NCBI GenBank assembly: GCA_035506535.1
Contig: DATJPE010000035.1
Span: 1 to 52,895 of the forward strand
Reading direction: 5' to 3'
DNA: 52,895 nucleotides
From: Actinomycetes bacterium
GTDB taxonomy: Bacteria; Actinomycetota; Actinomycetes; DATJPE01
Shown here: piece after piece, positions 1,678 to 12,617 of the stretch
How the letters are laid out: the number at the start of each line of letters is the position of its first letter
Position numbering within the stretch: the stretch's first letter is position 1
Translations under genes and position numbers: made by a program
Notes under the pieces: model-generated
Database searches by the model: none
The model's input: the letters and a program-made list of their open reading frames with translations, nothing else
Told to the model about the DNA's origin: nothing

Positions 1678-2451
1678 TCACCCCGACACCTCGGCCGTCC
1701 AGAGCACCAGTCGTGTGCGGTCCGCGCGGAAGAGGTCCCGGGCGAACTCCACCGGCGTCCCGGTCGCGTCGAGCGCGACCCGGGTCACGAGCATGAGCGG
1801 GGCTCCCGGCGGTGTGCCGAGCAGCGCGCAGTCGGCGTCGCCGGCGATGACCGGTTCGAGCGTCTCGCGCAGGCGGACAGGGTGACGGCCCCAGTCCGAT
1901 GCGAGCAACGCGTAGAGCGAGCCCTCGAGGTCGCGGTCGAGGAGGTCCGGGAACAGCCGGCCGGGGAACCAGGACTCCTCGAGGGCAACGGGCTCCCCGT
2001 CCGCGGAACGCACCCGGCGTACGCGCAGGGTCGAGGTGCCGGTGGACAGACCCAGGGCCTGGGCGACCTCACGCGGCGCGCGTACCCGCTCCGCCGCCAG
2101 GACCCGGGCACCGGGCGCCATGCCGCTGCGGCGCATCTGCTCGCTGAACCCGGTCACCGACGCGAGGTCGCACTCGACGACCCGGGGCGACCCGACGTAG
2201 GTGCCTCCCGCGCGGCCGAGCCGGCGGACGACCAGCCCCCTGCCCTCGAGGGAGGCCAGCGCCTGGCGCAGCGTCATCCGCGACACGCCCAGGTGCGCAG
2301 CAAGCTCTCGTTCCGGCGGCAGCCGGTCGCCGGACCGGAACGCGCCGGTCGCGAAGGCGTCGTGGAACCAGCGCTCGATCTGCTCGTGCACGGGCGCCCC
2401 GTCGCGGCTGTCGAACCGGGGCGGTGTCACCGTGCGCTGCGCCGAGCTCAT
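1678..2451 (-). CDS. GntR-family (HutC/DasR subfamily) transcriptional regulator
   Basis: This 257-residue regulator has an N-terminal winged helix (about residues 15-85, with PPERELAAHLGVSRMTLRQAL as the helix-turn-helix) and a C-terminal UTRA effector domain of the chorismate-lyase fold (about 105-250). That arrangement defines the HutC subfamily. It is divergent from the amine operon at 2494 and most likely represses it, with the amine or a phosphorylated or glutamylated derivative as inducer. The DasR-type half-site palindrome GGTCTAGACC lies 2 bases before its own start, so autoregulation is expected. The ATG at 2451 fits the family N-terminus; the longer open frame upstream runs into the divergent gene and is a shadow. 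The effector is not known. Confidence 0.88.
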   Translation of the reverse strand: MSSAQRTVTPPRFDSRDGAPVHEQIERWFHDAFATGAFRSGDRLPPERELAAHLGVSRMTLRQALASLEGRGLVVRRLGRAGGTYVGSPRVVECDLASVTGFSEQMRRSGMAPGARVLAAERVRAPREVAQALGLSTGTSTLRVRRVRSADGEPVALEESWFPGRLFPDLLDRDLEGSLYALLASDWGRHPVRLRETLEPVIAGDADCALLGTPPGAPLMLVTRVALDATGTPVEFARDLFRADRTRLVLWTAEVSG

Positions 2452-2493: not shown

Positions 2494-3399
2494 ATGGCAG
2501 CGCTGCCGCTCGACGCGGTCCTCGACCGCGTCGACGTGCTGTCCGGCCGCCCCCGCACGATCAGCGACCTCGGAGGGGGACTGACCAACACCAACCTGCG
2601 GGTCACGACGGATGACGGTGACTACGTCGTGCGGCTGTCCGCCAACACGACCGGCCTGCTCGGCATCGACCGTGACGCCGAGTACGCCAACTCGGTGCGG
2701 GCCCACGCCGCCGGCGTCGGGGCGGAGGTCGTGGCCTACCTGCCCGAGGAGCACGTCCTCGTGATCCGCTTCCTGCCCGGCCGCACGCTGGACGCCGCCG
2801 ACGTCGCGCCGCGCACCGCTCGTATCGCCGCGGCGCTGCGCGCGTTGCACGCGGGGCCGTCCTTCGTGTCGGACTTCGACATGCGGACCATCCGTCGCCG
2901 CTACCTCGACGTGGTCCTGGCCGAGGGGTTCCCGATCCCGGCGGACTACCTGGACCTCGCCCCGGCGTACGAGCGTCTCGAGGACGCCCTCGCGCTGGAG
3001 CCGGAGTCGTTCGTCCCGTGCAACAACGACCTGCTCGCCGCCAACTTCATCGACGACGGCGAGCGGATCTGGATCATCGACTACGAGTACGCCGGGCAGA
3101 ACGAGCCCTCCTTCGAGCTCGGCAACCTGGCGAGCGAGAACGGACTCGACGAGGCGCAGACGGCTGCGCTCGTCACGGCCTACTGGGGTGCCCCCGACGA
3201 CCGGAAGGTGGCACGGGCCCTCGCCTGGGCCCTCCTCGCGCGCTACGGGTGGACGCTGTGGGCGGCCATCCAGACCGCCGTCTCGGAGATCGACTTCGAC
3301 TTCGCGTCCTGGGGCATGGAGAAGTACGCCGTCGCACGCGAGGCCGGGCTCGACGGCACGCTGGACACCCTGCGGGTCCGGCTCGGAGCCCCCCGATGA
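2494..3399 (+). CDS. Choline/ethanolamine-kinase-like phosphotransferase (APH fold)
   Basis: This is a 301-residue protein of the choline kinase/aminoglycoside phosphotransferase fold. The N-lobe has GGGLTNTNLRV as the nucleotide loop and DYVVRLSA as the ATP-lysine region (Arg replaces the usual Lys). The C-lobe has the catalytic-loop motif NNDLLAANF, in which Asn stands where many relatives have His, and the metal-binding segment IIDYEYAG. The substrate is probably a small amino alcohol or amine rather than a drug, because the gene opens an amine-catabolic operon. I prefer ATG 2494 over GTG 2467 because a -10 sequence ends 7 bases before it. Its stop overlaps the next start as ATGA. Confidence 0.75.
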   Translation: MAALPLDAVLDRVDVLSGRPRTISDLGGGLTNTNLRVTTDDGDYVVRLSANTTGLLGIDRDAEYANSVRAHAAGVGAEVVAYLPEEHVLVIRFLPGRTLDAADVAPRTARIAAALRALHAGPSFVSDFDMRTIRRRYLDVVLAEGFPIPADYLDLAPAYERLEDALALEPESFVPCNNDLLAANFIDDGERIWIIDYEYAGQNEPSFELGNLASENGLDEAQTAALVTAYWGAPDDRKVARALAWALLARYGWTLWAAIQTAVSEIDFDFASWGMEKYAVAREAGLDGTLDTLRVRLGAPR

Positions 3400-5834
3400 G
3401 CAGCGACCTGCCCCAGCGGGCCCGCATCGTCGTCGTTGGCGGCGGTGTGGGCGGAGCGAGCATCGCCTACCACCTCGCCCAGCGCGGGGAGACCGACGTC
3501 CTCGTGCTCGAGCGCTCCGAGCTCACGTCCGGCTCCACGTTCCACTCCGCGGGCCTCGTGGGCCAGCTGCGCGGCTCTGTCGTGCTGACCCGGATGATGA
3601 TGGACAGCGCCGAGCTCTACCGAAAGCTCGCCGGGGATCCCGACACCGACCCCGGCTGGATCGAGTGCGGCGGGATCCGGCTCGCCTGCAGCCCGGAGCG
3701 CATGGAGGAGCTGGAGCGTCAGGTCGGCTGGGCGGAGTCCTTCGGGCTGCCGCTGCAGCGCATCACCGCCGCCGAGGCCGAGGCCCTCTTCCCCCCGATG
3801 TCCACCGAGCGCGTCCTCGGTGCCACCTACCTCGCGACGGACGGCTACCTTGACCCGTCACGGCTCACCTACGTCCTCGCGGCCGAGGCCCGCCGGGCCG
3901 GCGTACGCATCGCGGAGCGCACGCGACTGCTCGGCATCGACGTCGTCCGCGGTGCCGTTCGGGGGGTGCGCACCGACAGGGGAGACGTGGAGTGCGAGCT
4001 CGTCGTCGATGCAGCCGGGATGTACGCGGCCGAGGTCGCCCGCCTGGTCGGCGTGCGCGTCCCCATCGTCCCGATGAGTCATCAGTACGTCGTCACGATG
4101 CCCTTCCGCGACCTGGAGCCGGGCGCACCGCGTCTCCCGACCCTGCGCGACCCTGACCTATTGGTGTACTTCCGTGAGGAGGGCGCCGGGCTGGTCATGG
4201 GCGGCTACGAGCGCGACCCCAGCCCGTTCGCCCTCGGCTCCGACGGCTTCGACGCGGTGCCGGCCGACTTCAACGGCCGGCTGCTCGCCGAAGACTGGCC
4301 TCGGCTGGAGGAGATCACCACGAACTCGGTGGTGCGGGTGCCGGCGATGGCCGACGTCGAGCTGCGTCAGGTCGTCAACGGCCCGGAGGGGTTCACCCCC
4401 GACAACGAGTTCTGTCTCGGGCCGAGCGAGGTGACGGGCTTCTGGGTCGCGGCCGGCTTCTGCGCCCATGGCATCGCCGGCGCCGGCGGGATGGGCAAGG
4501 TCATGGCCGACTGGCTGGTCGACGGCGACCCGGGGATGGATCTCTGGGAGATGGACGTGCGCCGCTTCGGGGCGCACTACGGCTCGCCGACGTACACGCT
4601 GGCCCGCGTCCTGGAGAACTACTCGACCTACTACGACATCCGCTACCCGGGTCAGGAACGTACCTCCGGACGGCCCCTTCGGATGTCCCCCGCCTATCCG
4701 TGGCACGAGGCGCACGGCGCGGTCTTCGGCGAGAAGGGCGGCTGGGAGCGGGTCAACTACTACGCCCCCCACGAGCGTCTCGGGGACGCCGGGCGCCGAC
4801 CGCTGGGCTGGGCCGGTCACCTGTGGTCGCCGGCGATCGAGGCGGAGCATCGGGCGACTCGCGAGCACGTGGGGCTGTTCGACGAGACGTCGTTCGCGAA
4901 GATCGAGGTGTCCGGTCCGGACGCCGCGACGCTGCTCGAACGACTCTGCGATAACCGGGTGGCGGGCGCGGTCGGCCGTGTGACGTACACGCAGATGCTG
5001 AACCGGCGCGGTGGGGTGGAGTGCGACTTCACCGTGGCCCGACTGGGGGAGCAGGTCTTCCACATCGTCACGGGCACCGCCTTCGGCGGCCACGACCTGT
5101 CGTGGATCCGCCGGCACGCAGTCGGGGACGTCACCGTGCGCGACGTCACCTCGGCCTGGGCCTGCTACGGGATCTGGGGCCCGATGGCTCGCGACGTGCT
5201 CCAGCCACTCACTCCCCAGAGCCTGGACAACGAGGCCTTCCCCTACATGTCCGCGCGGCTGACCACGGTCGGGGGTGCGCCGGCGCGACTGCTTCGGGTC
5301 ACCTTCGTCGGCGAGCTCGGCTGGGAGGTGTACGTCCCCATGGAGCACGGCGCCGCGGTCTGGCGGCTGCTCGCCGATGCCACCGACGCGGCCGGCGGCA
5401 TGCCCTGCGGCTATAAGGCCATCGACTCGTTGCGCGCCGAGAAGGGGTACCGGTACTGGGGCAGCGACGTGACCGGCGACGAGACGCCGTACGAGGCCGG
5501 ACTCGGCTTCTGCGTGCGCGCCGACAAGTCCTTCGTGGGCTCCGACACCCTCGACCCGGAGCCGTTGCGGCGATTGGTCTGCTTGACCCTCGACGACCCG
5601 CAGCGAGCCGTCCTCGGCAACGAGCCGGTCCGTGTCGAGGGGCGCACTGTTGGGAGGGTCACCAGCGGAGCCATCGGCCATACCGTGGACGCCTCGATCG
5701 CCTTCGCCTATCTCCCTCGGTCCGCGACCGTCCCCGGCACCCGCACCGAGGTGCTGGTGTTCGGCGAGTGGGTCGGCGCGACGGTGCGCCAGGAGCCCTT
5801 GTACGACCCGTCCGGCGAGAGGGTTCGCTCATGA
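3396..5834 (+). CDS. FAD-dependent amine oxidoreductase fused to GcvT folate domain (sarcosine/dimethylglycine dehydrogenase type)
   Basis: This 812-residue fusion begins with a DAO-type FAD domain: GGGVGGAS at 15-22 binds the dinucleotide, and SGSTFHSAG contains His50, which aligns with the His that carries covalent FAD in mammalian dimethylglycine dehydrogenase. A linker domain follows at roughly 375-430. An aminomethyltransferase (GcvT) domain starts near 470, with ECDFTV and GELGWEVYVP, and a GcvT C-terminal barrel lies near 710-800. Such enzymes oxidise secondary or tertiary N-methyl amines and pass the one-carbon unit to tetrahydrofolate. The gene overlaps the kinase gene by ATGA. Next to a glutamine-synthetase-like ligase it may oxidise a gamma-glutamyl amine, as PuuB does, but PuuB has no folate domain. 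The substrate is unproven. Confidence 0.88.
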   Translation: MSSDLPQRARIVVVGGGVGGASIAYHLAQRGETDVLVLERSELTSGSTFHSAGLVGQLRGSVVLTRMMMDSAELYRKLAGDPDTDPGWIECGGIRLACSPERMEELERQVGWAESFGLPLQRITAAEAEALFPPMSTERVLGATYLATDGYLDPSRLTYVLAAEARRAGVRIAERTRLLGIDVVRGAVRGVRTDRGDVECELVVDAAGMYAAEVARLVGVRVPIVPMSHQYVVTMPFRDLEPGAPRLPTLRDPDLLVYFREEGAGLVMGGYERDPSPFALGSDGFDAVPADFNGRLLAEDWPRLEEITTNSVVRVPAMADVELRQVVNGPEGFTPDNEFCLGPSEVTGFWVAAGFCAHGIAGAGGMGKVMADWLVDGDPGMDLWEMDVRRFGAHYGSPTYTLARVLENYSTYYDIRYPGQERTSGRPLRMSPAYPWHEAHGAVFGEKGGWERVNYYAPHERLGDAGRRPLGWAGHLWSPAIEAEHRATREHVGLFDETSFAKIEVSGPDAATLLERLCDNRVAGAVGRVTYTQMLNRRGGVECDFTVARLGEQVFHIVTGTAFGGHDLSWIRRHAVGDVTVRDVTSAWACYGIWGPMARDVLQPLTPQSLDNEAFPYMSARLTTVGGAPARLLRVTFVGELGWEVYVPMEHGAAVWRLLADATDAAGGMPCGYKAIDSLRAEKGYRYWGSDVTGDETPYEAGLGFCVRADKSFVGSDTLDPEPLRRLVCLTLDDPQRAVLGNEPVRVEGRTVGRVTSGAIGHTVDASIAFAYLPRSATVPGTRTEVLVFGEWVGATVRQEPLYDPSGERVRS

Positions 5835-5956
5835 GGGAGTCGACGATCTCCTCCGATCGAGCCCTGGGACACGACGAATTCCGTAGCCTCGTTGCGCCGT
5901 TCGCGTCACCCACGCAGCGGATCATGAGGCCCGTGACGACCCGGAAGGCGACGTGA
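5831..5956 (+). CDS. Small ORF (41 residues) between oxidase and ligase genes
   Basis: This small frame starts with an ATG that overlaps the oxidase stop (ATGA) and ends with a TGA that overlaps the ligase start (GTGATGA). It encodes a basic, Ser/Thr/Arg-rich peptide (MRESTISSDRALGHDEF...) with no membrane segment, signal peptide or motif that I recognise. It could be a real small protein, or a device that carries ribosomes from the oxidase gene to the ligase gene. If it is not translated, the oxidase and ligase genes are separated by about 120 bases without an obvious Shine-Dalgarno sequence. Confidence 0.4.
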   Translation: MRESTISSDRALGHDEFRSLVAPFASPTQRIMRPVTTRKAT

Positions 5957-7326
5957 TGAGCATGTCGACGGCCACCCTCGACCTCGAAGGGCTGCGAACG
6001 CGCGTCGACCGCGGGGAGATCCACACCGTGGTGCTCGCGATCGTGGACATGCAGGGCCGCCTGCAGGGCAAGCGCCTGCATGCCGCCTACTTCCTCGAGG
6101 ACGTCGTCGCGCACGGCACGGAGGGGTGCAACTACCTGCTCGCCGTGGACGTGGACATGAACACGGTGGACGGGTACCGGATGTCCTCGTGGGACAAGGG
6201 CTACGGGGACTTCGTCATGCATCCGGACTTCAGCACGCTGCGGGTGCTGCCCTGGCACGAGGGCACCGCCTTCCTCTTCGCCGACCTGTCCTGGGAGGAC
6301 GGCAGCGACGTCCTCGCCTCGCCGCGGCAGATCCTTCGCCGGCAGACCGCCCGACTCGCCGAGCAGGGCATGGTCGCCCTCGTGGGGACCGAGCTGGAGT
6401 TCATCGTCTTCGACGACACCTACGAGTCGTTGTGGGCGACCGGCTATCGCGACCCGCACCCGTCCAACCTCTACAACGTCGACTACTCGATCCTGGGCAC
6501 GTCGCGCATCGAGCCCTTGCTGCGTCGCATCCGGCTCGGCATGTCCGGTGCCGGCATGCAGGTCGAGTCGGCCAAGGGCGAGTGCAACCTGGGCCAGCAC
6601 GAGATCGCCTTCAAGTACGCCGAGGCGCTGCGAACCTGCGACAACCACTCGCTGTACAAGACCGGGTCGAAGGAGATCGCCGCCCAGGAGGGCCAGGCAA
6701 TCACCTTCATGGCGAAGTTCAACGAGCGCGAGGGCAACTCCTGCCACATCCATCTCTCGTTCCGCTCCGGCGATGGTGACCCCGTCCTCGCCGGCGAGGG
6801 CCACCACGACGAAGGGCTGTCCTCGGTCGGGAAGGCGTTCGTCGCCGGACAGCTCGCTCACCTCGAGGAGCTGACCCTCTTCCTCGCCCCCAACATCAAC
6901 TCCTACAAGCGCTACGTCGAGGGATCCTTCGCCCCGACCGCGGTGAAGTGGGGCCGCGACAACCGCACCTGCGCGTTCCGCCTGGTCGGCCACGGACCGT
7001 CGCTGCGACTGGAGTGCCGGGTGCCTGGTGGCGACGTGAACCCTTACCTCGCGGTAGCGGGTCTCGTCGCCGCAGGGTTGGACGGCATCGAGCGCGACCT
7101 CGAGCTCGAGGCGCCATACTCCGGCAACGCCTACCTCGCCGGCGAGCGTCGCGTCCCCGAGTCCCTGTCAGATGCGCTCGCCCTGTGGGAGGGCAGCACG
7201 TGGGTACGCGAGGTCTTCGGCGAGGAGGTCCACGAGCACTACGCCAACATGGCGCGGGTCGAGCTCGCCGCCTTCAACCGTGCAGTCACCGACTGGGAGC
7301 GATTGCGGGGGTTCGAGCGGCTGTGA
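5956..7326 (+). CDS. Glutamine-synthetase-like gamma-glutamyl-amine ligase (PuuA/GlnA4 type)
   Basis: This 456-residue protein has the full glutamine synthetase layout. The N-terminal beta-grasp has VDMQGRLQGKRL at about 28-39. The catalytic barrel has the metal-binding GTELEF, CHIHLSF, NINSYKRY in the glutamate-binding region, RTCAFR, and RLECRVPGGDVNPYLA. Divergent relatives (PuuA for putrescine, Streptomyces GlnA3 and GlnA4 for polyamines and ethanolamine) join glutamate to an amine with ATP. Neighbouring aldehyde dehydrogenase, permease and gamma-glutamyl hydrolase genes favour this over ammonia assimilation. Possible starts are GTG 5953, ATG 5956 and ATG 5962. I chose 5956; the preceding small ORF stop overlaps it. 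The gene shares a GTGA overlap with the next gene. Confidence 0.85.
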   Translation: MSMSTATLDLEGLRTRVDRGEIHTVVLAIVDMQGRLQGKRLHAAYFLEDVVAHGTEGCNYLLAVDVDMNTVDGYRMSSWDKGYGDFVMHPDFSTLRVLPWHEGTAFLFADLSWEDGSDVLASPRQILRRQTARLAEQGMVALVGTELEFIVFDDTYESLWATGYRDPHPSNLYNVDYSILGTSRIEPLLRRIRLGMSGAGMQVESAKGECNLGQHEIAFKYAEALRTCDNHSLYKTGSKEIAAQEGQAITFMAKFNEREGNSCHIHLSFRSGDGDPVLAGEGHHDEGLSSVGKAFVAGQLAHLEELTLFLAPNINSYKRYVEGSFAPTAVKWGRDNRTCAFRLVGHGPSLRLECRVPGGDVNPYLAVAGLVAAGLDGIERDLELEAPYSGNAYLAGERRVPESLSDALALWEGSTWVREVFGEEVHEHYANMARVELAAFNRAVTDWERLRGFERL

Positions 7327-8690
7327 CGACCACCCACGACGTGCTCAACCCGGCGACCGAGGAGGTCGTCGCCACCGTCCATCTCGCGGACGTCGAGGAG
7401 ACCGACCACGCCATCGGGCGGGCGAGCCGAGCGTTCCAGACCTGGCGCGCGGTGGCACCCGCTGACCGCGGGCGCCTGCTGCGCCGCTTCGCCGAGGCGG
7501 TCGACGCCGCTCGCGAGGAGCTCGCGTGGCTCGAGGTCCGCGGCGCGGGCCACACCGTCGGCAACGCTCGCTGGGAGGCCGGCAACGTCCGCGACGTGCT
7601 CGCCTACTACAGCGCGGCGCCCGAGCGCCTGTTCGGACGCCAGATCCCGGTGGGCGGGGGGGTCGACCTGACCTTCAAGGAACCGCTCGGCGTGGTCGGC
7701 GTCATCGTGCCCTGGAACTTCCCGATGCCCATCGCGGGCTGGGGGTTCGCCCCCGCCCTGGCCGCGGGCAACACCGTGGTCCTCAAGCCCGCCGAGCTCA
7801 CGCCGCTGACCGCGGTGCGACTCGGGGAGCTCGCCCTCGAGGCCGGCCTCCCGGAGGACGTCTTCACCGTGCTGCCGGGCAAGGGCTCGGTCGTCGGCGA
7901 ACGCTTCGTGACGCACCCCGACGTACGCAAGATCGTCTTCACCGGGTCGACCAAGGTCGGCAAGCGCGTCATGCGCGGCTGCGCGGACCGCGTGAAGCGC
8001 GTGACGCTGGAGCTCGGCGGCAAGAGCGCCAACATCGTGTTCGCGGACGCCGACCTCGAGCGGGCGGCCGCGACCGCGCCCTCGGCGGTGTTCGACAACG
8101 CCGGGCAGGACTGCTGCGCCCGCTCACGCATCCTCGTCCAGGCATCCGTCTACGACCGCTTCCTCGAGCTGCTCGAACCCGCCGTCGCGGCCGTCCGCGT
8201 CGAGGACCCGTCCCGGGAGACCGCCGAGATGGGACCGCTGATCTCCGCCGAGCAGCGGGAGGTCGTCGCGTCGTTCGTACCGGCGCACGCCCCGGTGGCC
8301 TTTCGTGGCAGCGCCCCCGACGGTCCCGGTTTCTGGTACCCCCCGACGGTGCTGGCGCCGGTGTCCCCCGCCGACCGGGCTTACCGCGAGGAGATCTTCG
8401 GACCAGTCGTGGTGGTCCTTCCCTTCGAGGACGAGGCCGAAGCCGTGCGCCTGGCCAACGACACCGAGTACGGCCTCTCCGGATCGCTGTGGACGCGCGA
8501 CCTGGGCCGGGCGCTTCGCCTGGCCAGGGCGGTCGAGACCGGGACGCTGTCGGTGAACAGCCACTCCTCGGTGCGCTACAGCACCCCCTTCGGCGGGGTG
8601 AAGCAGTCCGGTCTGGGTCGTGAGCTCGGGCCGGACGCCCTGGACGCCTTCACCGACACCAAGAACGTCTTCATCGCGACGGAGGACTGA
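7323..8690 (+). CDS. NAD(P)-dependent aldehyde dehydrogenase
   Basis: This 455-residue aldehyde dehydrogenase oxidises an aldehyde to the acid. Visible landmarks are PWNFPMPIAGW in the cofactor site, FTGSTKVGKRV, the general base Glu230 in ELGGKSANIVF, the nucleophile Cys264 in GQDCCARSR, and EIFGPVVVV near the C-terminus. In this operon it would act as PuuC does, on the aldehyde made by the preceding amine oxidase. The start is the GTG at 7323 in a GTGA overlap with the ligase gene; the open frame upstream is a shadow. It is somewhat shorter than the usual 475-500 residues because the N-terminus is short. Confidence 0.9.
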   Translation: MTTTHDVLNPATEEVVATVHLADVEETDHAIGRASRAFQTWRAVAPADRGRLLRRFAEAVDAAREELAWLEVRGAGHTVGNARWEAGNVRDVLAYYSAAPERLFGRQIPVGGGVDLTFKEPLGVVGVIVPWNFPMPIAGWGFAPALAAGNTVVLKPAELTPLTAVRLGELALEAGLPEDVFTVLPGKGSVVGERFVTHPDVRKIVFTGSTKVGKRVMRGCADRVKRVTLELGGKSANIVFADADLERAAATAPSAVFDNAGQDCCARSRILVQASVYDRFLELLEPAVAAVRVEDPSRETAEMGPLISAEQREVVASFVPAHAPVAFRGSAPDGPGFWYPPTVLAPVSPADRAYREEIFGPVVVVLPFEDEAEAVRLANDTEYGLSGSLWTRDLGRALRLARAVETGTLSVNSHSSVRYSTPFGGVKQSGLGRELGPDALDAFTDTKNVFIATED

Positions 8691-8694
8691 ACGC

Positions 8695-9459
8695 ATGGAC
8701 CGTCTGCAGGACCGCGTGGCCGTGGTGACCGGGGGTGGCGGCGGCATCGGCGCCGCCACCGCCCGCCGCTTCGCCAGCGAGGGCGCGAAGGTCGTCGTCG
8801 TGGACCTGGCCGACGACGCCGGGAGTGCTGTCGCGGGCGACATCGGCGGGACCTACGTCCATGCGGACGTCACCTCGGCCGAGGACGTGGAGCGGGTCTT
8901 CGCGACGGCGTACGAGACCTACGGCTCGGTCGACATCGCCTTCAACAACGCCGGCATCTCCCCACCGGACGACGACTCGATCCTGGTGACCGGACTCGAC
9001 GCCTGGGAGCGGGTGATCCGGGTCAACACCACGTCGGTCTACCTGTGCTGCAAGGCGGTGCTGCCCTACATGCAGCGGCAGGGAAAGGGATCGATCATCA
9101 ACACAGCCTCCTTCGTGGCCGTGATGGGCGCCGCCACCTCCCAGATCGCCTACACCGCGAGCAAGGGCGGCGTGCTGGCGATGAGCCGCGAGCTGGGGGT
9201 GCAGTTCGCCCGCGAGGGCATCAGGGTCAACGCCTTGTGCCCCGGGCCGGTCGATACCCCGCTGCTGCGGGAGCTGTTCGCCAAGGACCCCGAACGGGCC
9301 GCCCGGCGGCTCGTGCACGTCCCGATGGGGCGCTTCGCCGATGCCGAGGAGATCGCCGCCGCGGTGGCCTTCCTGGCCAGCGACGACGCCTCCTTCGTGA
9401 CGGCGTCGACCTTCCTCGTCGACGGCGGCATCTCGGGGGCCTACGTCACACCGCTCTAG
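8695..9459 (+). CDS. Short-chain dehydrogenase/reductase
   Basis: This 254-residue classical SDR has the cofactor motif TGGGGGIG at about 12-19, NNAG near 83, the catalytic Ser in INTAS and YTASK as the Tyr-Lys pair. The C-terminal DGG motif and FLASDDASFVTAS are typical of the FabG-like group. Asp at the end of the second strand (VVVVDLAD) favours NAD(H). GGAGGA at 8681-8686 is 8 bases before the ATG. It may interconvert an alcohol and an aldehyde or ketone in the amine pathway, for example if the substrate is an amino alcohol. The exact substrate cannot be read from the sequence. Confidence 0.85.
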   Translation: MDRLQDRVAVVTGGGGGIGAATARRFASEGAKVVVVDLADDAGSAVAGDIGGTYVHADVTSAEDVERVFATAYETYGSVDIAFNNAGISPPDDDSILVTGLDAWERVIRVNTTSVYLCCKAVLPYMQRQGKGSIINTASFVAVMGAATSQIAYTASKGGVLAMSRELGVQFAREGIRVNALCPGPVDTPLLRELFAKDPERAARRLVHVPMGRFADAEEIAAAVAFLASDDASFVTASTFLVDGGISGAYVTPL

Positions 9460-9514
9460 TCCGCACCACCATTGAATCCCAGCAGCAACGGGGACTTCCT
9501 AGGAGGGAACGTCA

Positions 9515-11080
9515 GTGCCAGAAGGATTCATCCTGAACGAGGACGAGCAGCGGCTCGCCGAACTCGGGTACAAGCAGGAACTCAACCGAACCTGGTCCGG
9601 GTTCTCCAACTTCGCCATCTCCTTCTCGATCATCTCCATCCTCGCCGGCTGCTTCACCACGTTCGCCGTCGGATGGAACAACGGCGGTCCTGCGGCCATC
9701 GCGATCGGCTGGCCCATCATCGCGGCCTTCATCCTGGTCATCGGGCTCTGCATGTCCGAGCTGGTCTCCGCCTTCCCGACCTCGGGGGGCATCTACTGGT
9801 GGGCGTCCAGGCTCGGGGGCGCACGAGCCGGGTTCTACACCGGCTGGCTCAACCTGATCGGGCTGCTGGCCATCGAGGCGTCCGTCGCCTATGGCGTCGC
9901 GACCTTCTTCGACCTCACCCTGGACACCTACAGCAAGTCGTGGGCAGCCCACTACTCACTGACCAGGGTCTTCGTGATCTTCATCGTCGTGCTCATCCTG
10001 GTGTCGCTGGTGAACATCTTCAGCAGTCATCTGCTGGCGATCTTCAACAACATCTCGGTGTGGTGGCACGTCCTGGGAGCTTCGGCGGTCGTCCTGATCC
10101 TCCTGTTCATCCCCAACCACCACCAGAGCGTCCACGACGTCTTCACGACCACGGTGAACAACACCGGGTTCTTCGGAGGGAGCACGTCGGGCTGGGGCTT
10201 CGTCTTCTACGTGCTGCCACTCAGCGTGATCCTCACGCAGTACACGATCACTGGGTACGACGCATCTGCCCACCTTTCCGAGGAGACGCACAGCGCCGCG
10301 GACTCTGCAGCGAAGGGCATCTGGCGGTCGATCTTCTACTCGGCGATCGGTGGCTGGATCCTGTTGCTGGCATTCCTCTTCGCCGTGCAGGACGTCGACG
10401 GCGTCACCAAGGCTGGTGGAGGCGTCGTCACGATCTTCACACAGGCCCTCAGCACCAACTGGGCGAGCACGGTTCTGGCGATCTCGACGATCGGACAGTT
10501 CTTCTGCACCGTCGCGTGCATGACCAGCTGCACGCGGATGATGTTCGCGTTCAGCCGGGACGGGGCGGTGCCGGGCCACCGGCACTGGCGCAAGCTCAAC
10601 GCGGCGAAGGTGCCGTTCAACGCGGTCATCCTCACGGCCATCATCTCCGTGATCATCACCGCCCCGGCCCTGCTGAAGGTCGACATCAACGGGGCGCCCG
10701 TTCCGGTCGCCTTCTTCGCGGTCGTGACCATCGGCGTCGTCGGCCTGTACGTGGCGTTCGCGATCCCGATCTACTACCGCTGGCGCGCGGGTGACAGCTT
10801 TGTGCAAGGCTCGTGGAACTTGGGCAACAAGTGGAAGTGGATGGCGCCCATCGCCGTGGCTGAGATCCTGATCTCGAGCATCATCGCGCTTCTCCCGGGG
10901 TCTCCGGCAGCGGTGCCGTGGAACTCGTCCTTCGCCTGGCGCTACGTGAACTACACCCCGATCGTCGTCTTCGGGGTTCTCATCGCCATCACCATCTGGT
11001 GGCAGGTGTCGGCGAAGAACTGGTTCAGCGGACCCAAGTCCACGATCGACCTACCCGAAGGAGTGGTCGACGCGGAGTAG
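9515..11080 (+). CDS. APC-superfamily amino acid/amine permease
   Basis: This 521-residue permease has about 12 hydrophobic segments. It resembles the amino acid/choline transporter group, with GYDASAHLSEETHSA in the conserved cytoplasmic loop near residue 248 and FPTSGGIYWW near residue 88. It most likely imports the amine that the preceding enzymes degrade, in the role of PuuP. AGGAGG at 9501-9506 is 8 bases before the GTG start, one of the clearest ribosome sites in the operon. The gene is the last of the operon and is followed by a hairpin. Confidence 0.9.
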   Translation: MPEGFILNEDEQRLAELGYKQELNRTWSGFSNFAISFSIISILAGCFTTFAVGWNNGGPAAIAIGWPIIAAFILVIGLCMSELVSAFPTSGGIYWWASRLGGARAGFYTGWLNLIGLLAIEASVAYGVATFFDLTLDTYSKSWAAHYSLTRVFVIFIVVLILVSLVNIFSSHLLAIFNNISVWWHVLGASAVVLILLFIPNHHQSVHDVFTTTVNNTGFFGGSTSGWGFVFYVLPLSVILTQYTITGYDASAHLSEETHSAADSAAKGIWRSIFYSAIGGWILLLAFLFAVQDVDGVTKAGGGVVTIFTQALSTNWASTVLAISTIGQFFCTVACMTSCTRMMFAFSRDGAVPGHRHWRKLNAAKVPFNAVILTAIISVIITAPALLKVDINGAPVPVAFFAVVTIGVVGLYVAFAIPIYYRWRAGDSFVQGSWNLGNKWKWMAPIAVAEILISSIIALLPGSPAAVPWNSSFAWRYVNYTPIVVFGVLIAITIWWQVSAKNWFSGPKSTIDLPEGVVDAE

Positions 11081-11099
11081 TGCTCCGTGCAACGTGTCG

Positions 11100-11143
11100 C
11101 CCGGCCGTCCTGCCTCTTCCCTCCTGAGGTCAGGACGGCCGGG
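11100..11143. terminator. Terminator-like hairpin after the permease gene
   Basis: CCCGGCCGTCCTG (11100-11112) and CAGGACGGCCGGG (11131-11143) form a perfect 13-bp stem, and CCTC/GAGG can extend it inward. There is no U-run. It lies between convergent genes and could stop transcription from both sides. Confidence 0.7.
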
Positions 11144-11214
11144 ACGCTGGCGTCCGCCGCCCCACCCCGTTCTTCTCCCAGAAGTGGGGCGGGAGCCGTC
11201 AGGACCTCCCGGGG

Positions 11215-11907
11215 CTACCGGGTGGCTGCGTCGACGAGCGCCTCGAACAGGCGCGGGTCGTCCCTGACCTCGGGATGCCAGAGCACCCCGAGGGCGAAGC
11301 ACCGGTTCGGGTCCTCGACCGCCTCGACCGAGCCGTCGTCGGCGTGGCCGCTGATGGTCAGTCGGCCCGCATCGTCGACCCCCTGGTGGTGCGACGAGCT
11401 GACCACGACGCGGTCACCCAGAACCTGATGGAGGCGGGTGCCCGGGGTGAGGGACACGCAGTGCTCTCCGTAGGTCCCAGGAGCTGGGCGGTGCTCCTCG
11501 TGACCGACCAGGTCCGGCAGGTGCTGGTGCAGCCGTCCGCCTGAGGCGACGACCATCACTTGGAGCCCGCGGCAGATGCCCAGCGTCGGCAGATCGCGAT
11601 GTGCTGAGGCCTCGGCGAGCCGGAGCTCGCTGGCGTCGCGGTCGGGGCGCAGCCCCGTCGTCTCGGGCCGGATCTCCGCGCCGTAGCGAGCTGGGTCGAT
11701 GTCGGCGCCTCCCGCGAGGATCAGTCCGTCGAGCCGGTCGAGCACCTCGTCCGCGTACGCGAGGCCGGGCGGGATGAGGACCGGGAGCGCCCCGGCCCGT
11801 ACGACGTGCTGCACGTAAGCGTCGGGGACGAGGACGGCGTCGACGTCCCACGGCCCCCACCGGGCGCGCTCACGATAGGCGGAGATCCCGATGACCGGCC
11901 GGCTCAT
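11215..11907 (-). CDS. Gamma-glutamyl hydrolase-like class I amidotransferase (PuuD type, peptidase C26)
   Basis: This 230-residue protein has the class I glutamine amidotransferase triad: Cys112 in LGICRGLQ, His211 and Glu213 in LWHPEV. LILAGGADIDPARYG near 62-76 is typical of the gamma-glutamyl-GABA hydrolase group. It should cleave the gamma-glutamyl product at the end of the neighbouring pathway and release glutamate and the acid. The gene is convergent to the operon and does not belong to its transcript. Its ATG overlaps the stop of the IclR regulator gene by four bases, so the two are probably co-transcribed. Confidence 0.88.
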   Translation of the reverse strand: MSRPVIGISAYRERARWGPWDVDAVLVPDAYVQHVVRAGALPVLIPPGLAYADEVLDRLDGLILAGGADIDPARYGAEIRPETTGLRPDRDASELRLAEASAHRDLPTLGICRGLQVMVVASGGRLHQHLPDLVGHEEHRPAPGTYGEHCVSLTPGTRLHQVLGDRVVVSSSHHQGVDDAGRLTISGHADDGSVEAVEDPNRCFALGVLWHPEVRDDPRLFEALVDAATR

Positions 11908-12617
11908 GGGCGCTTCAGCGCCTCGGTCAGCTTGGCCGCGGCCGCCATCACGGCGGGCGCGTGCAGCCTGCCGGGAGTTCGCGTAAGTCGTTCGATCGGG
12001 CCGCTCACGCTGACCGCGGCGACGACCCGGCCGCCCGGGCCGCGCACCGGCGCTGACACCGACGCGACCCCGGGCTCGCGCTCGGCGACGCTCTGCGCCC
12101 ATCCACGTCGCCGTACGCCCGCGAGGATGGTGGCCGTGAAGCGGGCCCCGCGCAGCCCTCGGTGCAGGCGCTCCGGCTCCTCCCAGGCGAGCAGCACCTG
12201 CGCGGCCGACCCGGCGCCCATCGAGAGCACCGATCCCACCGGCACCGTGTCGCGCAGACCGCTCAGGCGCTCGGCGGCGGCGACGCAGATCCGCTCGTCG
12301 CCCTGGCGACGGTAGAGCTGAGCGCTCTCGCCGGTGAGGTCGCGCAGGGTGGCGAGCACCGGCCCCGCCGCGGCCTGCAGACGATCCTCCCCGGCGGCGG
12401 CGGCGAGCTCGGCGAGCCGGGGACCGAGGACGAAGCGGCCTTGCAGGTCACGCCCCACCAGGCGGTGGTACTCCAGCGCGACCGCGAGCCGGTGCGCGGT
12501 GGGCCGGGCGAGCCCGGTCGCCTGCACCAGGCCGGCGAGGGTGAGCGGGCCGCTCTCGAGCGCCGACAGGACGGCCGCCGCCTTGTCCAGGACGCCGACT
12601 CCGCTAGAGTTGTCCAT
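11904..12617 (-). CDS. ndgR: IclR-family regulator of leucine synthesis, NdgR/LtbR type
   Basis: This 237-residue IclR protein has an N-terminal winged helix ([20 protein letters not shown]..., helix-turn-helix around [19 protein letters not shown]) and a C-terminal effector domain. The N-terminus matches my memory of Streptomyces NdgR and corynebacterial LtbR, which control leuCD and other amino acid genes. Its place, divergent from leuC with 59 bases between the starts, is the conserved one. The overlapping gamma-glutamyl hydrolase gene downstream is not part of the arrangement I know. The ATG at 12617 is supported by the family N-terminus. Confidence 0.9.

Follow-up and report, generated by a model that had tools for sequence, protein, structure and literature searches.

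The window analysed here is the whole 52,895-nucleotide stretch of contig DATJPE010000035.1, a contig of a 3.35 Mb actinomycete genome that is the sole member of its order in our comparison set. Within it lies a gene cluster that joins a choline/ethanolamine-kinase-family kinase and a flavoprotein fusion (DAO-GcvT) to a glutamine-synthetase-like ligase and its companions (Table 1). The original prediction, made from the sequence, had described a hybrid amine-degradation system; every gene it named is present at about the position it gave, as judged by reading frames and domain scans, but its list was incomplete, since a short-chain dehydrogenase (SDR) gene between the aldehyde dehydrogenase (ALDH) and permease genes had been overlooked. 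The sequence bears out the overlaps it claimed, from kinase through oxidase, small open reading frame (ORF) and ligase to dehydrogenase, with ATGA where the kinase meets the DAO and again where the DAO meets the small ORF, TGATG between small ORF and ligase, and GTGA between ligase and ALDH. We treat the cluster as two halves. Half A (ligase, ALDH, SDR, APC permease, Peptidase_C26 hydrolase and GntR regulator) is already known, while half B (kinase and DAO-GcvT) forms a front end that is apparently undescribed.

Table 1. Genes of the cluster and its immediate borders, in window coordinates
Feature	Position	Strand	Basis and remarks
GntR/UTRA transcriptional regulator	1678-2451	-	Pfam GntR and UTRA; upstream of the operon and divergent from it
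Choline/ethanolamine-kinase-family kinase (proposed N-methylethanolamine kinase)	2494-3399	+	PF01633
DAO-FAO_M-GCV_T-GCV_T_C fusion (proposed folate-linked phospho-methylethanolamine demethylase)	3396-5834	+	Pfam domains
41-amino-acid ORF between DAO-GcvT and ligase	5831-5956	+	Reading frame
GlnA4-type gamma-glutamylethanolamide synthetase-like ligase (glutamine-synthetase family)	5956-7326	+	Gln-synt_C
ALDH (proposed gamma-glutamyl-aminoacetaldehyde dehydrogenase)	7323-8690	+	Aldedh, 527 bits
SDR dehydrogenase (proposed gamma-glutamylethanolamide alcohol dehydrogenase)	8695-9459	+	NF004713, 481.5 bits (cut-off 404)
APC-family amine/amino-acid permease	9515-11080	+	AA_permease_2
Peptidase_C26 (PuuD-like) hydrolase (proposed gamma-glutamylglycine hydrolase)	11215-11907	-	PF07722, 195.8 bits
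IclR-family regulator	11904-12617	-	IclR domains; followed by a leuC-like reading frame and an Aconitase_C protein

The ligase half and the ethanolamine route

Half A matches the published Streptomyces glnA4 ethanolamine gene set, a route recognised here from the joint presence of the SDR, ligase and ALDH genes. In the portion of that work cited here (PMC6529630), the S. coelicolor cluster consists of SDR, ALDH, glnA4, the divergent repressor EpuRI/SCO1614 and a glutamine amidotransferase; several species have a permease as well. The product of GlnA4 is gamma-glutamylethanolamide, and the enzyme's reported specificity, within the set of compounds tried there, is for ethanolamine; the steps that follow, to glycine and glutamate, are that paper's proposals. 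The window likewise has a glutamine-synthetase-like ligase with ALDH, SDR, an opposite-strand regulator, a permease and a hydrolase of the glutamine-amidotransferase type, and differs in carrying the kinase and the DAO-GcvT, both of which are missing from the Streptomyces cluster as published. According to the same source, a permease of the S. pristinaespiralis cluster improved growth on ethanolamine. By analogy, the GntR/UTRA regulator is a probable EpuRI-like repressor; GntR matches, some of them incomplete, recur near the ligase or the DAO in many of the relatives' loci.

Neighbouring genes in those loci were identified by tblastn with the window's proteins. The window ligase, whose closest solved structures are 5dm3 and 11zs, is 66–67% identical to the ligases of four genomes of one family of the same class (f19; 6.4–9.2 Mb). 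All four f19 loci show SDR-ALDH-ligase with a divergent partial GntR match and a Peptidase_C26 gene, and no kinase, DAO or APC permease match was found in the 18 kb fetched. The ALDH stands after the ligase in the relatives' loci fetched, and in most of them an SDR, mostly 74–83% identical, comes next (none was seen at L140, and L143 has only a 35% match). The APC permease is a neighbour of the kinase even in genomes that have their ligase at another place. Four glnA4-type clusters of another family (f17; L144-L147) have an extra DAO-like protein, about 34% identical over 330 amino acids, 0.4–2.4 kb beyond the hydrolase gene. The 41-amino-acid ORF, sought by relaxed tblastn (E up to 1) in 175 loci, returned only the window's own copies (L004 and L006); it is probably a spacer or lineage-specific, and it was discarded as a conserved component of the cluster.

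A second published system, the ethanolamine gamma-glutamylase operon of marine Phaeobacter and Chromohalobacter, shares its chemistry with half A (ligase, aldehyde dehydrogenase, alcohol dehydrogenase and amidohydrolase) but differs in its TRAP transporter and in that neither a kinase nor a DAO-GcvT is named among its genes in the part of the account cited (PMC10132767). The Paracoccus example of a marine-type operon that we viewed has an iron-type alcohol dehydrogenase and a hydrolase of the N-formylglutamate-amidohydrolase type, unlike the window. The Puu putrescine pathway, in whose terms the cluster had originally been framed, draws its ligase, ALDH, hydrolase and permease from the same superfamilies, but neither an SDR nor a GcvT-fused oxidase belongs there, and the window has both. 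All three scores against the Puu equivalog models fell below the NCBIfam cut-offs (ligase against PuuA, 204.5 bits, cut-off 650; ALDH against PuuC, 351.8, cut-off 850; hydrolase against PuuD, 104.8, cut-off 266). With these cut-offs missed and an SDR present, we rejected the Puu pathway and assign the gene set to the glnA4 ethanolamine route. PuuB, too, is a DAO-fold oxidase; that the window's oxidase stands in for it on a glutamylated amine is less likely, as the SDR already does the alcohol oxidation, and is further disfavoured by the intact GcvT residues and by the occurrence of the kinase-DAO pair where the ligase is elsewhere.

The partnership of kinase and DAO-GcvT

The kinase scores 70.4 bits against PF01633 (cut-off 29), placing it in the choline/ethanolamine kinase family, and its best solved relatives are 3dxq, a "choline/ethanolamine kinase family protein", and 4r77, a choline kinase. 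D179 and N184, which we take to be the catalytic Asp and Asn, are kept in 55/55 aligned sequences, and D196, presumably the second Asp, in 54/54 with a letter there; within what we assume to be the functional W-x-x-W motif, W253 is kept in 45/53 and W256 in 53/53 with a letter there.

The DAO-GcvT matches dimethylglycine dehydrogenase (DMGDH; 4pab) and dimethylglycine oxidase (DMGO; 1pj5) over its full length and has the complete DAO-FAO_M-GCV_T-GCV_T_C architecture of that family. H50, presumably the FAD-linking His, together with H229 and Y258, which we take to be the equivalents of the catalytic His225 and Tyr259 of DMGO, is present in 59/59 rows of the alignment, and the presumed T-domain Asp (D544) in 58/59; DMGDH has Glu there. 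Since these residues are kept, oxidative N-demethylation with transfer of the one-carbon unit to tetrahydrofolate (THF) is likely, as the original prediction had supposed. Apart from the kinase partner, the fusion is set off from DMGDH and DMGO by Arg59, Gly270, Phe339 and Lys/Arg447, positions conserved throughout the kinase-linked groups but occupied by other residues in those enzymes. R59, G270, F339 and K447, among others, are candidate phosphate-binding positions in kinase-linked DAOs, R59 occurring also in several unlinked DAO-GcvTs. The gene context points away from dimethylglycine or sarcosine as the substrate. The DAO-GcvT frame of one relative (G096; L020/L057) contains a single in-frame TGA, either a sequencing error or the mark of a pseudogene.

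We sampled 246 genomes of the window's class, with cut-offs of E <= 1e-100 for DAO-GcvT, 1e-15 for the kinase and 1e-110 for the ligase. DAO-GcvT matched in 86 genomes, the ligase in 112 and the kinase in 45, of which 41 reach at least 150 bits; these 41, called kinase genomes below, are spread over 13 family codes. A DAO-GcvT lies within 1 kb of the kinase in 31/41 and, by match place, within 10 kb in 35/41, with G126 as a 36th if a DAO fragment at a contig edge is counted. In three kinase genomes (G156, G202 and G237) the kinase adjoins the ligase instead. Half B is a conserved partnership, its pairing above chance. A glnA4-type ligase is found anywhere in the genome in 39/41 kinase genomes versus 73 of the 205 without kinase, and in 25/27 genomes whose DAO match reaches at least 670 bits; the whole set (kinase, DAO, ligase, ALDH, SDR, permease and hydrolase) stands together in seven further loci (L053, L057, L059, L074, L079, L162 and L163). 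The original prediction's refuting condition, a lack of co-occurrence of oxidase and ligase genes in related genomes, thus did not arise. Seven small genomes of family f26 (L060-L066; 1.2–2.2 Mb) keep a divergent kinase-DAO pair with the ligase elsewhere in 7/7 and, in six of the seven, a dnaB-like helicase gene nearby. Five f17 loci (L067, L068, L071, L072 and L076) have a LipB-like gene, read by eye, beside a permease-kinase-DAO run.

The pairing extends beyond the class. With the window kinase as query, 105 records of a plasmid collection matched, and four of the first eight viewed have a DAO-GcvT beside or near the kinase. A narrower query, the Salipiger kinase at E <= 1e-20, returned 20 plasmid records (19 proteobacterial and one from Nonomuraea, several being near-copies), and a DAO-GcvT lies within 200 bases of the kinase in 20/20 (14 in fetched regions, 6 by match places). 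The Salipiger abyssi plasmid carries a near-complete route in one run, which starts with a betaine/choline-type ABC transporter, kinase, DAO-GcvT, EtfB, an FAD-binding protein (probably EtfA), FolD and PurU and continues with N-formylglutamate amidohydrolase, ligase, ALDH, iron-type alcohol dehydrogenase, GlyA and serine ammonia-lyase; an inositol-monophosphatase-type protein (IMPase) and a HAD protein stand at the ends. A Nitratireductor locus reads DeoR-kinase-DAO-EutH, and two Ruegeria loci read choline-type ABC-kinase-DAO-IMPase; betaine/choline-type ABC transporters stand ahead of the pair in Shinella HZN7 and R. rosettiformans as well. In Flavihumibacter profundi (Bacteroidota; L040 7514-13170) the order is permease-kinase-DAO-IMPase, the first three being 52–59% identical to the window's, and transfer of this module between phyla is likely. 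An IMPase is thus a neighbour of the pair in Salipiger, both Ruegeria and Flavihumibacter, and lies no more than about 1 kb away in L066; a HAD phosphatase homologue stands beside it in L041 and in three genomes of family f4 (L078, L081 and L165), and in L067 another, distant IMPase match lies some 5 kb from the DAO.

Other arrangements were seen in passing. Arthrobacter U41 (L166 4542-14263) has no DAO and carries a choline-family kinase, an amidase, an IMPase and a glnA4-type ligase set; Paracoccus yeei (L120 1-12031), also without DAO, has an IMPase, a Zn-dependent hydrolase, two phosphotransferases and EutBC. These layouts suggest that N-acyl or similar ethanolamines are handled as phosphates. 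In Aminobacter (L129) a Rieske oxygenase and reductase accompany two DAO-GcvTs and a DeoR regulator, and in S. meliloti (L128) a DeoR-DAO-GcvT pair lies between taurine and 2-aminoethylphosphonate genes; these DAO-GcvTs are perhaps demethylases for other N-methylated anions.

The DAO tree comprised 57 rows, L049 (696 amino acids) and L070 (555 amino acids) having been excluded from the 59 extracted. Kinase-linked rows fall into separate clades, one of 29 rows that contains the window together with other actinomycetes and Flavihumibacter, and one of 8 proteobacterial rows. A third clade holds four kinase-linked rows and three without a link on the fetched contig; among the genomes of these three, G202 and G237 have their kinase beside the ligase elsewhere, and in G075 (73% complete) no kinase was found. 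The second DAO of R. rosettiformans places apart, and DAO-GcvTs fetched from outside the kinase-linked clades had no kinase in their stretches. The kinase-link label requires 6 changes on the tree, whereas shuffled labels need 13.4 on average. The kinase tree carries only Shimodaira-Hasegawa-like approximate likelihood ratio (SH-aLRT) support and has several open forks; in it, kinases whose DAO belongs to the third clade are nested among kinases whose DAO belongs to the main clade, so the kinase lineage apparently changed its DAO partner at least once; such a change would argue that kinase and DAO act in one pathway.

A proposed route through phosphorylated methylethanolamines

We lean towards the view that the cluster degrades ethanolamine together with N-methylated ethanolamine (N-methyl- and/or N,N-dimethylethanolamine), the latter being phosphorylated first, demethylated onto folate and then passed into the glnA4 route. 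The APC permease would import the amino alcohol, and the choline-kinase-like enzyme would phosphorylate its hydroxyl, so that the molecule, like dimethylglycine, would bear an anion on the far side from its nitrogen. The DAO half would then oxidise an N-methyl group using covalent FAD, and the GcvT half would trap the one-carbon unit as 5,10-methylene-THF, leaving phosphoethanolamine. A phosphatase (IMPase or HAD in some relatives) would free ethanolamine; in the window this might fall to a housekeeping enzyme or to kinase-mediated phosphate transfer back. From there the ligase would form gamma-glutamylethanolamide, the SDR and ALDH would oxidise the alcohol end to give gamma-glutamylglycine, and the Peptidase_C26 enzyme would cleave this to glutamate and glycine. 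Glycine and methylene-THF could combine to serine, such that N-methylethanolamine would yield one glycine and one methylene-THF, that is, one serine, which fits the GlyA and serine ammonia-lyase of the Salipiger run.

What the sequences establish is the gene content, the preserved catalytic residues and the conserved linkage. We infer the substrate, the phosphorylation before demethylation and the phosphatase step from the company these genes keep: an N-methyl-removing folate enzyme, an ethanolamine-type kinase, a phosphatase and an ethanolamine route together point most simply to N-methyl- or N,N-dimethylethanolamine, handled as its phosphate. Ethanolamine as product fits the near-constant ligase of the kinase genomes, the EutH of Nitratireductor and the Salipiger run. 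The original prediction spoke of an N-methylated amine or amino alcohol, glutamylated or phosphorylated before oxidation. The comparative evidence favours the amino alcohol and both modifications but not that order; the substrate is probably phosphorylated first and glutamylated later.

A precedent for this order of steps comes from Eubacterium limosum. In the part of the account cited here (PMC12155760), choline is phosphorylated by MthK and the resulting phosphocholine demethylated by MthB, its methyl group passing to THF, all anaerobically; MthK also transfers phosphate from dimethylaminoethanol phosphate to choline, and dimethylaminoethanol is released from choline. This MthK-MthB-MthC-MthA system resembles our proposal in that a choline kinase phosphorylates an amino alcohol before demethylation and the one-carbon unit goes to THF. 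It differs in using a corrinoid methyltransferase on a quaternary amine under anaerobic conditions and in stopping at dimethylaminoethanol phosphate, and neither a flavoenzyme nor an ethanolamine route appears in the cited part of the account. A general domain scan, with no search aimed at MttB, showed no MttB-type corrinoid methyltransferase among the cluster proteins. Speculatively, and by analogy with MthK, phosphate transfer may spare the window organism a dedicated phosphatase.

Several observations weigh against a phosphorylated, ethanolamine-yielding route. In G016 and G160 the kinase stands beside the permease and no DAO turned up within some 10 kb of it, and four of the eight plasmid records viewed (H3, H6, H10 and H13) show no DAO in the stretch, their kinases neighbouring hydrolases, a second phosphotransferase and in one case EutBC; the link to DAO-GcvT often does not hold for more remote kinases of the family. 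The ligase lies within 10 kb of the kinase in only 12/41 kinase genomes and is absent from two, G059 (78% complete) and G211, while Flavihumibacter shows only a 34% ligase match, which means that the kinase-DAO module can exist without the ligase stage. The statistics of the kinase-ligase co-occurrence (Fisher odds ratio 35, p 2e-13) are not corrected for kinship, that is, for shared ancestry. Only 6/37 actinomycete-type and Flavihumibacter loci and 3/14 proteobacterial ones, some of them on short contigs, have a phosphatase homologue at most about 1 kb from the pair, and IMPase and HAD queries found nothing in the whole window, so that a phosphatase within it was rejected. The kinase's own substrate could instead be ethanolamine or choline, and we know of no activity for any kinase-linked DAO-GcvT or its kinase.

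An alternative that we think unlikely puts glutamylation first. The ligase would take N-methylethanolamine, SDR and ALDH would produce gamma-glutamylsarcosine, the hydrolase would free sarcosine, and the DAO-GcvT would be an ordinary sarcosine dehydrogenase yielding glycine and methylene-THF, with the kinase in a side role such as ethanolamine salvage. The overall products are unchanged, so that FolD, PurU and GlyA of the Salipiger run fit equally well, and Arg59, which differs from DMGDH and DMGO and occurs in several kinase-less DAO-GcvTs, could belong to a sarcosine-like carboxylate site. This order leaves unexplained, however, why the kinase is a near-constant partner of the DAO, even where the ligase is far away or was not found, and why an IMPase or HAD protein stands beside the pair in several lineages; it is mainly the kinase and the phosphatases that separate it from phosphorylation first. 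S. coelicolor GlnA4 also speaks against it, being ethanolamine-specific among tested compounds in the cited portion of PMC6529630.

The kinase-DAO module might also handle some other N-methylated amino alcohol or phospho-base, such as a methylated serinol, a choline-derived phospho-base or a substrate that needs a Rieske demethylase as well, with a product that only partly enters the ethanolamine route. The betaine/choline-type transporters ahead of the pair (Salipiger, both Ruegeria, Shinella HZN7 and R. rosettiformans), the Rieske oxygenase and reductase with two DAO-GcvTs in Aminobacter and the distant ligase match in Flavihumibacter would suit such a compound. We nevertheless consider it rather improbable: EutH beside the pair in Nitratireductor and the genome-wide link to glnA4-type ligases point to ethanolamine, and on general chemical grounds quaternary ammonium compounds, phosphocholine among them, should be out of reach for a flavin amine dehydrogenase. 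That halves A and B are separate in many genomes might even suggest two unrelated neighbours, a glnA4 operon next to a choline kinase and a DMGDH serving lipid or cell-envelope metabolism and ordinary betaine breakdown. Given the overlapping genes of the window, the repeated pairing in separate DAO clades, the partner switching, the seven further whole-set loci and the ligase frequency in kinase genomes, we regard this as very improbable.

The degradation of methylated ethanolamine through its phosphate would give the recurring kinase-DAO pair a testable function, and would link choline-type phospho-bases to folate and to an ethanolamine nitrogen route. The pair is carried by Actinomycetota, including the small f26 genomes, by Proteobacteria and by one Bacteroidota strain, and the breakdown of choline and of methylated phospholipids could plausibly give rise to N-methylated ethanolamines. 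Our searches of open-access papers returned no description of a kinase and DAO-GcvT acting on methylated ethanolamine, nor of an enzyme set that brings N-methylated ethanolamines into central metabolism by way of a phosphate. The earlier statement that no pathway with this set had been described therefore stands for half B, within the reach of these searches, and falls for half A. If the proposal is correct, it adds a new substrate class for dimethylglycine-dehydrogenase-type enzymes.

More tentatively, and with a little more doubt than belief, we suggest that phosphate serves bacteria as a removable handle, N-substituted ethanolamines being processed as their phosphates. A choline-family kinase would add the handle, and a class-specific enzyme would remove the N-substituent, DAO-GcvT onto folate for N-methyl groups and perhaps, going by the Arthrobacter U41 and Paracoccus yeei loci, an amidase or Zn-dependent hydrolase for N-acyl groups; an IMPase or HAD phosphatase would then take off the phosphate and leave ethanolamine for the GlnA4 route or EutBC. 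To our knowledge, the DAO-GcvT of the window would be the first dimethylglycine-dehydrogenase-type enzyme whose substrate is a phospho-base and not an amino acid.

Features at the borders of the cluster

On the right, the IclR gene was rejected as a member of the cluster. The regulator probably belongs with its leuC neighbour; we assume it to be of the NdgR type, which we associate with leuCD. On the left, a tyrosine-recombinase/integrase gene was detected by domain scan at 230-1528 on the minus strand. A short piece at about 1567-1602 on the plus strand resembles the 3' part of a tRNA gene by eye, with no tRNA called there by ARAGORN. Together, the integrase and the tRNA-like piece probably mark the boundary of an integrated element that adjoins the cluster on its left side.

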